From contig VERI01000001.1 in the NCBI GenBank assembly GCA_018882785.1, positions 124,001 through 188,000 on the forward strand: 64,000 nt of DNA. Reading direction: 5' to 3'. The notes under the pieces are model-generated. The model ran no database searches, was not told the origin of the DNA, and saw nothing but the letters and a program-made list of their open reading frames with translations. The DNA is from Burkholderiaceae bacterium (lineage in GTDB: Bacteria; Pseudomonadota; Gammaproteobacteria; Burkholderiales; Burkholderiaceae_A). The translations under genes and the position numbers were made by a program. Positions 1-5,262 of this stretch are shown in pieces. The stretch's first letter is position 1. The number at the start of each line of letters is the position of its first letter.

Positions 1-864
1 GATAAGCGATCCAAGTTCTTGCACTACCGGGCGGAGATCGCAATTCTGAATAATCTGGAATTCGATCATGCCGATATCTTTCCGGATCTCGCCGCAATCG
101 AGACCCAGTTTCATCATTGGATCCGAACCCTGCCGGCAGAAGGCCGTCTTTTGGTCAATGTCCGCGAGCCTGCACTAGAACGCGTGTTACAGCGTGGGGC
201 GTGGACGGCAGTGGAGGCCTTGCACCATCAGGATGGCTGGTCGGTTATGCCCGTCACTTCCGCGGGTGAATGTGATGAATTTGCAATCCAATTCGCCGGA
301 CGTCAGGTGGGCCATGTGCGTTCACCATTGATGGGTGAGCACAATCGCAGCAATGTCTTGGCTGCGGTTGCTGCCGCAGCCGCCTATGGGGTGCAGGCGG
401 AGCAGGCATGTGATGCGATTGCGCGATTTCGGGGTGTTAAACGCCGGATGCAGCTCAGGGGTGAGGTGCGTGGCATTGCGGTGCTCGATGATTTCGCGCA
501 TCACCCGACGGCGATTGCCACAACATTGGCTGGGCTTCGCCAGCAGATGCGGCGAGCGCAATCCCAGGGCAGGCTACTGGCCGTGGTTGAGCCGCGTTCC
601 AACACCATGAAGCTTGGCGTGATGTCGGCGCGGCTTGCGCCGAGCCTAAACGATGCCGACCGGGTGTTTGCCTACTCTGGAGGAATCGACTGGGATCTTC
701 GGGCTGCCCTTGTGCCGCTGGGCCCCAAGGCGGACGTACACCAGGATCTTGATCGGCTGATTGGTGCTGTTGTTGGCGAGGCCCGTCCTGGAGACCGCAT
801 CTTAGTGATGAGCAACGGCGGATTTGGCGGCATTCACGAGCGCCTGCTCGCCGCACTGGCCTGA
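1..864 (+). CDS. mpl: UDP-N-acetylmuramate:L-alanyl-gamma-D-glutamyl-meso-diaminopimelate ligase (Mpl), 5'-truncated by window edge
   Basis: Frame open from base 1 (DKRSKFLHYRAEIAILNNLEFDHADIF, GVKRRMQ, VLDDFAHHPTAI, EPRSNTMKLG), typical of Mur ligase family Mpl. Confidence 0.93.
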   Translation, partial: DKRSKFLHYRAEIAILNNLEFDHADIFPDLAAIETQFHHWIRTLPAEGRLLVNVREPALERVLQRGAWTAVEALHHQDGWSVMPVTSAGECDEFAIQFAGRQVGHVRSPLMGEHNRSNVLAAVAAAAAYGVQAEQACDAIARFRGVKRRMQLRGEVRGIAVLDDFAHHPTAIATTLAGLRQQMRRAQSQGRLLAVVEPRSNTMKLGVMSARLAPSLNDADRVFAYSGGIDWDLRAALVPLGPKADVHQDLDRLIGAVVGEARPGDRILVMSNGGFGGIHERLLAALA

Positions 865-883
865 TCGCGCGAAGGCACCCTAC

Positions 884-3736
884 ATGTTTGTGCTTTTTGA
901 AGAGGATGGTGCGTTCAAGGTCGGCACGCTCTTTTCAGAGGCGGAGTCCAGCATCCAGGTCGAGATGGCCTCAGGAAAGCGGATCAAGATAAAACGTAAT
1001 GTGGTGCTGCTGATGTTTGATCGGCCAGCCCGCGATCAGCTGCTGCCCGCCGCCCAGGAGATTGCGGCGGGTCTGGACACGCAGTTTCTCTGGGAATGTG
1101 CGCCTGTCGAGGAGTTTGGTTTTCAAGAGTTCGCCCAAGAGGTGTTTTCCTCCTCGCCGAAAACTGAAGAACTGGCCGGGCTGCTGATCGCCTTGCATCA
1201 GTCACCGATGTATTTTTATCGTAAGGGCAGAGGCCGTTATCGAACTGCGCCAGAGGAGTCATTGAAGGCCGCCCTGGCGGGCGCCGAACGCAAGCGCCTC
1301 GCGGCCATCGCCCAGCAGCAGATGCACGATGCATTGCTTGCGGGTGAAGTCCCGGAGGAGATCGCTCTACGGGCCGTCGCGCTGCTGACCCGGCCCGACA
1401 AACAATCGGTCGCATATAAGGCGCTTGAGTCTGCCGCGCAGGAACTTCAGTTGGCGCCTGCGCGGCTACTGCTCTCGCGCGGCGCGATTCCCTCTGCCTA
1501 TGTGGTGCATCGTGCACGTTTCATGCAGCAGTGTTTCCCGATGGGACCCGAGGCGGGATTGCCGGATGACGAGATTGCAGCGGCAGTTGCGCAGGCGGAG
1601 CGACTGGGCCTGCCAAAGGCAGACCAGCCTGCCTATTCGATTGACGATACCAGCACGACCGAAATCGATGATGCGTTTTCCCTGACCGATCTGCCCGACG
1701 GTGGCTGGCGTGTCGGCATTCATATTGCCGCACCCGCTGCGGGCATTGAGCCCGCCAGTCTGTTGGGCAGGTCGGCGCGAGAGCGTGCGTCCACCGTGTA
1801 TTTCCCCGGTGACAAGATCACCATGCTGCCTGAGCCAGTGATTGCAGCGTATTCCTTGGATCAGGGCCAGTGGCGGCCAGCCTTGTCTCTGTATGTGGAT
1901 TTCAATGCCCAAGGCGAGCGGCGTTCAAGCCAGTCGCGGCTTGAACGGATTCAGATCATGGAAAACATTCGACTGGGCCCATGGGAGGAGGAGCTGGAAC
2001 GGCCCGATGAGCAGATCAGTTCCGATCGTCTGCCCTGGGCGGGGCTTCGTCCGCTCCTCATGATGGCCCGTCGTCTGCGTGCAGATCGTGAGCAGGTCCG
2101 CGGGCGTCCCGAGGCAACGGGCAGGACCGATTTTAATTTTTATGTGGATTGGAATACCAGCAATCCCGATGCCATGCGGTCTGGAGACGGACAGCCACGG
2201 ATTGTTGAGCGGCGAAGGGGATCGGCGGTTGATGTGCTTGTTTCTGAGTTCATGATTCTTGCCAACACGGTCTGGGGAGACGCATTGGCCCTGGCGCGAC
2301 TGCCGGGCGTGTATCGGGTGCAGACCTTGGGCCGCGTTCGCATGCAGACACAGCCCGGCCCCCATCAGGGACTGGGTGTCCAAAACTATGCATGGTCGAC
2401 ATCACCTTTAAGACGATTCAGCGACCTGCTCAATCAGTGGCAGATTCTGGCCGTCTTGGGCCATCGGCAGCCCTTATATCGGGGCAGTGAGGCCGAGTTA
2501 TTTTCATCCGTGACGCAGTTTGATACAGCCTATAACCAGTACGCTGACTTCCAAGACACAATCGAGCATTACTGGGCCCAGCGATGGATCGCCCTTCAGC
2601 ATGGCCTCGGAGATCGGGAGTCTTGGTCTGCTGTGGACGCGGGCATTCAGATTCGCGAGCGGGCTGTGGCCGTTCGGGGCGGCGGTTTCCGGCTACGCCG
2701 CGCGCCGCTATGGTGCCGATGCGCGGACGCCCCTGAGCTCACGCCAGGTGTGGAAGTCGAGTTGGATGTACTTGCCGCGGATGCCCTTGATCTTAGTCTT
2801 CAGGCAAGATTCGTTGCTGTAGTGTCAACCGCGTTGATTGCACAGGAGGAGCCCCCGATGCTGGCCAGGCACTACGCCGTGCTGGGAGACCCTATCAGCC
2901 ACAGCAGGTCTCCGTCCATTCATGCAAGGTTTGCCTCCCAGACAGCCGAGGATCTTGATTACATCGCGATTCGTGTCCCGGTACAGCAGCTTGCCGCCGA
3001 CATTGAGCGCCTGATGGCCTCGGGCTATGGTGGAGTGAATCTTACGATTCCATTAAAAGAGCATGCATTCGCCTTGGCTCAGGCCAGCGACTGGGAGATC
3101 TCATCGCGTGCGCTCGCGGCGGGCGCCGTGAACACATTGCGGTTTGAACCGGGTCAGGTTCTGGCGGATAACACGGATGGTGCTGGACTGGTGCGGGACT
3201 TAGAGCGACTGCTGGGCGCAGAGGGCGCCTTGGGCGATGCGCGTGTGCTGCTGCTTGGAGCGGGTGGCGCTGCCCAAGGTGTGTTGGGCCCGCTCCGGCA
3301 GGCCGGTGCGCGCGAGATCCTTTTGGTGAATCGAAGTTTTGACAAGGCGCAGGCAGTGGTCCAACGATGGGCAGAGCTCGACCTCACTTCCTCGCAATGG
3401 CTATCGGCAGCGCCTCTGGGATTGCTGGCCGAGCCGCCGGATCAGCACGGGCCAGACATTGTGATCAATGCCACGTCTGCAAGCCTGTCCTCGCAAGAGT
3501 TTCCGATCCATGACGGATATTTTCTGCGGGCGAAGGTTGCCATCGACATGATGTACGGTGCCCATCCCACGCTGTTTATGCAGCAGGCGCAGCGGGCGGG
3601 CGCGGCCCTGGTCGCGGACGGACTGGGCATGCTGGTAGAGCAGGCCGCCGAGGCTTTTTTCATTTGGCGGGGTGTTCGGCCTGAGACGGCTTCGGTCCTG
3701 GCCGAATTGCGTTTACAGTTAGCGGCAGTTTCATAG
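884..3736 (+). CDS. Fused ORF: RNB-domain (RNase II family) exoribonuclease followed in frame by shikimate dehydrogenase (AroE)
   Basis: ORF track 824..3736; likely start ATG 884. N-terminal part has TTEIDDAFSL and TSPLRRFSDLLNQ (RNB motifs); C-terminal part has YAVLGDPISHSRSPSIH, NLTIPLKEHA, GAVNTLR, LLLGAGGAAQGV (AroE motifs). No stop between them. Confidence 0.88.
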   Translation: MFVLFEEDGAFKVGTLFSEAESSIQVEMASGKRIKIKRNVVLLMFDRPARDQLLPAAQEIAAGLDTQFLWECAPVEEFGFQEFAQEVFSSSPKTEELAGLLIALHQSPMYFYRKGRGRYRTAPEESLKAALAGAERKRLAAIAQQQMHDALLAGEVPEEIALRAVALLTRPDKQSVAYKALESAAQELQLAPARLLLSRGAIPSAYVVHRARFMQQCFPMGPEAGLPDDEIAAAVAQAERLGLPKADQPAYSIDDTSTTEIDDAFSLTDLPDGGWRVGIHIAAPAAGIEPASLLGRSARERASTVYFPGDKITMLPEPVIAAYSLDQGQWRPALSLYVDFNAQGERRSSQSRLERIQIMENIRLGPWEEELERPDEQISSDRLPWAGLRPLLMMARRLRADREQVRGRPEATGRTDFNFYVDWNTSNPDAMRSGDGQPRIVERRRGSAVDVLVSEFMILANTVWGDALALARLPGVYRVQTLGRVRMQTQPGPHQGLGVQNYAWSTSPLRRFSDLLNQWQILAVLGHRQPLYRGSEAELFSSVTQFDTAYNQYADFQDTIEHYWAQRWIALQHGLGDRESWSAVDAGIQIRERAVAVRGGGFRLRRAPLWCRCADAPELTPGVEVELDVLAADALDLSLQARFVAVVSTALIAQEEPPMLARHYAVLGDPISHSRSPSIHARFASQTAEDLDYIAIRVPVQQLAADIERLMASGYGGVNLTIPLKEHAFALAQASDWEISSRALAAGAVNTLRFEPGQVLADNTDGAGLVRDLERLLGAEGALGDARVLLLGAGGAAQGVLGPLRQAGAREILLVNRSFDKAQAVVQRWAELDLTSSQWLSAAPLGLLAEPPDQHGPDIVINATSASLSSQEFPIHDGYFLRAKVAIDMMYGAHPTLFMQQAQRAGAALVADGLGMLVEQAAEAFFIWRGVRPETASVLAELRLQLAAVS
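2844..3736 (+). other. aroE: AroE domain of the fusion with its own candidate Shine-Dalgarno (AGGAGG 2844-2849) and in-frame ATG (2858)
   Basis: cacAGGAGGagcccccgATG read directly; ATG 2858 is in frame with ATG 884 (1974 nt); M-LARHYAVLGDPISHSRSP matches a normal AroE N-terminus. Confidence 0.75.
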
Positions 3737-3783
3737 CCAGACCTTTCGGGGCTCAAGCGGAGTCTCGTTGGGGGCCCTCATTC

Positions 3784-5262
3784 ATGACCGAGACCGCAGA
3801 CCAGACCCCCTCCATTCGCGATCCCGAAGCGGCTCAGCTTGCACTTGCCGAGGTGCAGGAGATTCTTGCGCGGCAGCGGCTCGAAAGTGAACTCGTCCAC
3901 CGTGAACAACACGCAGTAGACGCGCAGCGGCAGGCGATCGTGGAGCAGCTGGTGCTCAAACAGCATCAGACCGCGCTTCAGGCCAGGCTCGATCAGCTGC
4001 ATCCGGCAGATATCGCGTACATCCTGGAGGCTCTGCCGCGTGAAGAGCGGCTGATCATCTGGGATCTGGTCCGTGCTGAACGGGACGGTGAGATTCTGGT
4101 GGAGGTCTCCGATGCGGTCCGAGAGACGCTTATCGCATCGATGGATCGTGAAGAGCTGGTGGCCGCGGCCGAGACGCTAGACACAGACGATCTTGCTGCG
4201 CTTGCTCCGGATCTGCCAGAGGAGGTGGTGGAGGAGGTCAGCGAGGGCCTCACCATTGAAGAGCGCGAGCAGTTACGCGCGGCGATGTCGTATCCAGAGG
4301 GCAGTGTGGGCGCCCGTATGGATTTCGAGATGGTGACCATTCGCGACGATGTGACCCTGGAAGTAGTGCTCCGTTATCTGCGCCGGTTTGATGAGCTGCC
4401 GAGTAATACAGATCAGGTGTTTGTGGTGGACCGTGAGGATCGACTGCAGGGTAGTCTTCCGATCGGCCGGCTGCTGGTGCATGAGCCCGAGACACTGGTG
4501 CGTGAGCTGATGTCGGTCGATGTGATGCGGCTTGAGCCGCTTGACGATGTCGGCGATGCTGCGCTTGCCTTTGAACGTTATGACCTGGTGTCAGCGCCGG
4601 TGGTCGATGGGCAGGGCAGAATCATTGGCCGGCTGACGGTTGACGAGGTCGTTGATGTCATCCGTGAAGAGAGCGAGCAGGATGTATTGGCCCAGGCGGG
4701 TCTGCGTGAAGAGGAAGATCTTTTTGCATCGGTATGGGAGTCGGCCAAGAACCGATGGCTTTGGCTTGCCTTAAACCTCTGCACCGCTTTTTTTGCCTCA
4801 CGTGTGATCGGTGCCTTCGAGGGTACGATCGAGCGGGTGGTCGCGCTGGCAGCATTGATGCCGATTGTGGCGGGTATTGCAGGTAATTCTGGCAATCAGA
4901 CGATGACGCTTTTCATTCGATCGATTGCCCTGGGCCAGGTGACGGCTAAAAATGCGCCACGGCTTTTTGCCAAAGAGCTGTCGATCGCGATTCTCAATGG
5001 CATGGTCTGGGGATCGATCGCAGGACTCTTTGCCTGGTGGCTTTACAGTGATACTGATCAGGGCGTTATCCTGGGCCTGACGATGATGCTGGCCATGCTG
5101 TTAAATCTCCTGATTGGGGCATTGATTGGGCTGCTGGTGCCATTTGTACTGGAGCGCATGGGCCGGGATCCGGCGATGGGATCCTCTGTTCTGCTGACAT
5201 TTAGTACCGACTCGATGGGGTTTTTTATTTTCCTCGGCCTGGCGACGTTGTTCTTTACCTGA
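3784..5262 (+). CDS. mgtE: Magnesium transporter MgtE (N domain, CBS pair, membrane domain)
   Basis: LHPADIAYILEALPREERLIIWDL, CBS-like segments, PIVAGIAGNSGNQTMTLFIRSIALGQ, STDSMGFFIFLGLAT. Confidence 0.95.
   Translation: MTETADQTPSIRDPEAAQLALAEVQEILARQRLESELVHREQHAVDAQRQAIVEQLVLKQHQTALQARLDQLHPADIAYILEALPREERLIIWDLVRAERDGEILVEVSDAVRETLIASMDREELVAAAETLDTDDLAALAPDLPEEVVEEVSEGLTIEEREQLRAAMSYPEGSVGARMDFEMVTIRDDVTLEVVLRYLRRFDELPSNTDQVFVVDREDRLQGSLPIGRLLVHEPETLVRELMSVDVMRLEPLDDVGDAALAFERYDLVSAPVVDGQGRIIGRLTVDEVVDVIREESEQDVLAQAGLREEEDLFASVWESAKNRWLWLALNLCTAFFASRVIGAFEGTIERVVALAALMPIVAGIAGNSGNQTMTLFIRSIALGQVTAKNAPRLFAKELSIAILNGMVWGSIAGLFAWWLYSDTDQGVILGLTMMLAMLLNLLIGALIGLLVPFVLERMGRDPAMGSSVLLTFSTDSMGFFIFLGLATLFFT

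Follow-up and report, generated by a model that had tools for sequence, protein, structure and literature searches.

The window analysed here is a 64,000-nucleotide stretch of a Burkholderiaceae genome, and close to its left edge a single open frame joins a gene for an RNase II-type (RNB) exoribonuclease to aroE, which encodes shikimate dehydrogenase (Table 1). The frame is free of stops from 824 to the TAG at 3734-3736 and both domains were found within it, bearing out the original prediction of one frame running from RNB into AroE with no stop at the gene boundary. The length of 970 aa given at that time holds if translation is counted from TTG 824, but the homologous start is ATG 884, which gives 950 aa. 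Pfam profiles place RNB at aa 247-480 of the fused protein, followed by Shikimate_dh_N, Shikimate_DH and SDH_C. The RNB domain (PF00773) scores 162 bits against a curated cut-off of 29.3, and the AroE half scores 299 bits with the aroE equivalog NCBIfam NF001310 (cut-off 221) and 215 bits with TIGR00507 (cut-off 200.2). Both the RNB exoribonuclease and AroE are encoded in full within the one frame. The AGGAGG predicted to lie 8 nt before an in-frame ATG at 2858 is also exactly where it had been placed.

Table 1. Features of the fused rnb-aroE locus, in window coordinates.
Feature	Position	Strand	Basis
Fused rnb-aroE gene, 950 aa plus TAG stop	884..3736	+	Single open frame, kept across 18 genomes of 2 genera
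RNB (RNase II-type exoribonuclease) half, aa 1 to about 649	884..2830	+	Profile matches, invariant residues
Variable linker, about aa 650-658	2831..2857	+	Low model confidence, high dN, alignment
AGGAGG, Shine-Dalgarno-like, inside the fused frame	2844..2849	+	Conserved in genus g1
AroE (shikimate dehydrogenase) half	2858..3736	+	Profile matches, catalytic K725 and D765 (fusion numbering)
Upstream neighbour: Mur ligase family protein, C-terminal part, probably Mpl; crosses the window edge	1..864	+	Mur_ligase_M, Mur_ligase_C
Downstream neighbour: MgtE-type divalent cation transporter	3784..5262	+	

The fusion is present in all 18 genomes of two genera of the same family, namely the window's own genus (g1, 7/7) and a second genus (g2, 11/11); two named relatives, Burkholderiales bacterium UBA954 and Burkholderiaceae bacterium ZLKRG38, are both metagenome-assembled genomes. 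Each claimed fusion was checked by direct translation; a frame listing can merge two frames across one stop. Independent retranslation of 17 of the 18 genomes, the window included, gave both domains in one uninterrupted frame, and in the eighteenth (G024) the gene is divided between two contigs, each open through the junction. Identity to the window's fused protein is 67-77% in g1 and 49-53% in g2. The search of close relatives proposed with the original prediction has thereby returned the same fusion, with no stop at the boundary, in every other g1 genome and throughout g2. The window's genome is a draft of 83 contigs, and the main alternative raised at the outset was that a sequencing or assembly error had deleted a stop between two ordinary genes, but 17 further genomes of the family, the single-contig genome G001 among them, have this open frame, and seven genomes of another family have a fusion as well, so this explanation has practically no chance of being right. 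A chance open frame in GC-rich DNA was also rejected, as the two domains share a frame in each of the fused genomes.

Several other candidates were set aside. In G043 and G089 the seeming fusions (open_frame 997 and 952) have a stop between the genes (TAA in G043). A long AroE frame in Aromatoleum (L076, L079) crosses rnb in a frame other than its own, and neither G370 nor G401 was counted because the frame listing puts AroE in another open frame. In G023 (L017/L043), the first ~50 residues of the fusion are encoded out of frame with the remainder, which is possibly a frameshift or a sequence error.

Each of the 18 genomes has one clear AroE, the extra matches in g2 being due to the contig break in G024 or weak (18-19 bits). 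As the sole clear copy, the fused gene must, judging from the pathway, supply shikimate dehydrogenase. The family's third genus, g3, is different: rnb and aroE are separate and adjacent in two genomes, five carry aroE with no match to an rnb of this type, and aroE went unmatched in one that is 76% complete. The g3 loci without an RNB gene of this subfamily are L037, L038, L063, L067 and L069 (G010, G008, G014, G018 and G012); at L037 and L038, where the order could be seen, aroE comes directly after a Mur ligase gene, which suggests loss of rnb.

Beyond this family, a search of 399 genomes across the order turned up one further case (G197), in genus g103 of a different Burkholderiales family. 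With one genome taken per species, about half of the species covered, and thresholds below which much more divergent fusions would score, no other fusion was found in the rest of the order sample or in a class-wide search of 369 genomes. Within g103 the gene is fused in seven of eight genomes, including G777, which is spread over contigs yet open from RNB through AroE, and the linkers are longer than in g1 and g2, varied in length and mostly acidic. The eighth genome, G313, has separate rnb and aroE genes that overlap at ATGA. Trees of RNB and of AroE both place the g103 fusions with G313 and G077, unfused members of their own family, and the AU test rejects uniting all fusions in a single clade (p = 2.7e-5 for RNB and 0.03 for AroE). 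Since a single origin is rejected by the trees, the fusion arose at least twice. Spread of one fusion between the two families by horizontal transfer would fit the identical domain order in both clades, but it is very improbable given that the two halves of the g103 protein sit with unfused sequences of their own family, that the grouping of all fused proteins fails for each half, and that the linkers of the clades are unlike.

Both halves of the fused protein evolve under purifying selection, with dN/dS of about 0.05-0.2 in the RNB and AroE halves alike and higher values in the linker. A fused frame kept across species, with both parts under selection, indicates a stable gene fusion. The RNB catalytic motif, SIDDTSTTEIDD, lies at aa 252-263, and in alignments of the fused proteins D254, E260, D262, D263 and R510 are invariant; we take their counterparts in E. 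coli RNase II to be the active-site residues D201, D207, D209 and D210, plus R500. At the equivalent of D207, fused proteins and aligned unfused Burkholderiales relatives alike carry Glu (E260 of the fusion), and a Glu shared with unfused proteins is not damage caused by the fusion. In the AroE half, K725, D765, S674/S676 of the SxSP shikimate motif and G792-A796 of the GAGGA NADP motif are invariant in 17 fused proteins. Both enzyme activities are therefore probably retained, and the bifunctional polypeptide of the original prediction gains support from the conserved catalytic residues of both enzymes, from which its bifunctionality would follow.

An AlphaFold2 model, built from an alignment of 33 proteins, has a mean pLDDT of 91.9 that falls to 56 at residues 651-660, and Foldseek matched it to AroE structures (TMt up to 0.93) and to structures of the RNase II/R family. 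The fused protein is thus predicted to consist of two well-folded domains on a short flexible tether, and the pTM of 0.65 means that no fixed contact between the halves is predicted. A linker that is short, variable and modelled at low confidence would also suit a protease that cuts the polypeptide there and yields two ordinary enzymes. We consider such cleavage improbable, as the linkers of g1, g2 and g103 differ in length and sequence and no common cleavage motif was seen among them.

The original prediction held further that the locus might make two products, a fused protein and a free AroE. AGGAGG-N4..10-ATG is found three times in the 64-kb window, the other two instances being unlike gene starts, and because of these three occurrences a single instance says little; what counts is its conservation in g1. 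All seven g1 genomes have an in-frame start with a strong Shine-Dalgarno at the AroE N-terminus (ATG, but TTG in G002), and in all seven the pairing energy of the Shine-Dalgarno is among the best 0.2-2.5% of in-frame start codons of the same genes. Three of these genomes (G004-G006) are closely related, so the internal start amounts to about five independent observations. The linker residues vary around the conserved start and Shine-Dalgarno. ATG 2858 is therefore a probable alternative internal start, and g1 probably makes free AroE in addition to the fused form. The two-product idea does not carry over to the other clades, where a usable internal start is mostly absent. The g2 linker is shorter, and a start of this kind is missing from most genomes of that genus; G011 has no ATG, GTG or TTG in 32 codons and G009 has no start codon upstream of the AroE core, the exception being G019, with a GTG and a distant Shine-Dalgarno. 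Apart from one exception, the Shine-Dalgarno strength in g2 likewise does not reach the top ranks seen in g1. A usable internal start is mostly absent from g103 as well, and both genera probably make, for the most part, the fusion alone.

The same features bear on whether the fusion is merely formal, with AroE coming mainly from the internal ribosome-binding site and the fusion arising as a minor read-through form. The strong Shine-Dalgarno and start kept in 7/7 g1 genomes despite a varying linker speak for this, as might, suggestively, a run of near-invariant synonymous sites in g1 at 2798-2814 (CTTCAGGCAAGATTCGT, 11th highest of 935 windows), some 43-45 nt before the internal aroE ATG. We nevertheless regard it as unlikely: with no stop ahead of the internal start, all ribosomes translating rnb carry on into aroE, and a usable start is generally missing in g2 and g103. 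The CTTCAGGCAAGATTCGT segment could conceivably be a promoter or regulatory element; no sigma-70-like promoters were found in 600-4000, and searches for RNA families near the locus gave nothing but sub-threshold chance matches.

Synonymous sites are almost invariant across g1 in the last ~14 codons of the fused gene too (3690-3730, with ATTGCGTTTACAGTTAGC at 3706-3723). This region is the highest of the 935 windows (z 10.9), has a single copy in the genome and lies about 60 nt before the mgtE start, and it is probably a cis element for mgtE.

Taken together, the locus carries an authentic fusion that dates back at least to the common ancestor of g1 and g2 and very probably encodes a tethered protein, one that is probably bifunctional; that of g103 arose independently, and g1 is probably dual-product and g2 and g103 mostly fusion-only. 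The original prediction derived the fusion from loss of the rnb stop codon. A real and conserved fusion agrees with this, but the event is ancestral to two genera rather than recent in one strain, and it recurred in a second family. The original prediction also described rnb and aroE as neighbours in Burkholderiales. In G043/G089 and in G022 the two genes adjoin, sharing a frame and parted by no more than a short spacer and stops. A TonB-like gene stands between rnb and aroE in the three unfused Burkholderiales examined for this, and its loss probably came first. We infer that, once the TonB-like gene was lost, rnb and aroE would have become direct neighbours, and that loss of the intervening stop would then have produced the fused frame; the same route would have been taken independently in g103. 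The adjacent arrangements (G043/G089, G022) and the overlapping one (G313) are plausible intermediate states. The product would be an RNase II/RNB-type 3'-5' exoribonuclease that a short, flexible linker connects to an ordinary shikimate dehydrogenase. In g1 the old aroE ribosome-binding site and start survive in the fused frame and probably still yield some free AroE, whereas in g2 and g103, where the internal start is mostly gone, AroE should come solely from the fused form.

Each part of the protein resembles well-characterized enzymes. The RNB half shares the RNB domain, the active-site Asp motif, the TSPxRR segment and the fold with RNase II/RNB exoribonucleases (E. coli 2IX0 and 2ID0; Deinococcus RNase II family 2R7D), but differs from them in belonging to a Burkholderiales subfamily with Glu at the RNase II D207 position and in bearing a C-terminal AroE. 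The AroE half is full-length, with the shikimate-binding, NADP-binding and catalytic residues of AroE from E. coli (1NYT), Vibrio (3PGJ/3O8Q) and Pseudomonas (4OMU); unlike these, it follows an exoribonuclease and mostly lacks its own start codon in g2 and g103. Shikimate dehydrogenase (SDH) is likewise one domain of a multifunctional protein in plant DHQ-SDH (2GPT), fungal AROM (7U5S) and a Clostridium entry titled as a chorismate mutase/SDH fusion (3FBT). There, however, the partners share the pathway of SDH, whereas here the partner is an RNA-degrading enzyme, for which we know of no link to the shikimate pathway. To our knowledge the RNB-AroE combination is new, though both parts are ordinary, and no description of it was found in searches of the open-licence literature. 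It is apparently a genuine, undescribed domain architecture.

The simplest view is that the tether may be tolerated without coordinating the two activities. These genomes have no clear AroE other than the fused gene, so the protein has to cope with being tethered. It is distinctly unlikely, though kept alive by the convergent second origin, that the repeated fusion is adaptive and couples aromatic biosynthesis to RNA decay, through both products in g1 and the fusion alone in the other clades. Such coupling could take the form of fixed dosage, regulation of the nuclease by NADP(H) or shikimate binding, or placement of AroE in RNA-decay complexes. This architecture joins RNA turnover with primary metabolism, is fixed in two genera and was reached independently in another family. 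Genus g1, where the internal start is kept, g2, where it is mostly lost, and their unfused cousins appear to represent steps from neighbouring genes to one protein, and these clades would permit a direct test of whether two-domain fusions that bridge unrelated pathways arise as neutral accidents or serve a function.
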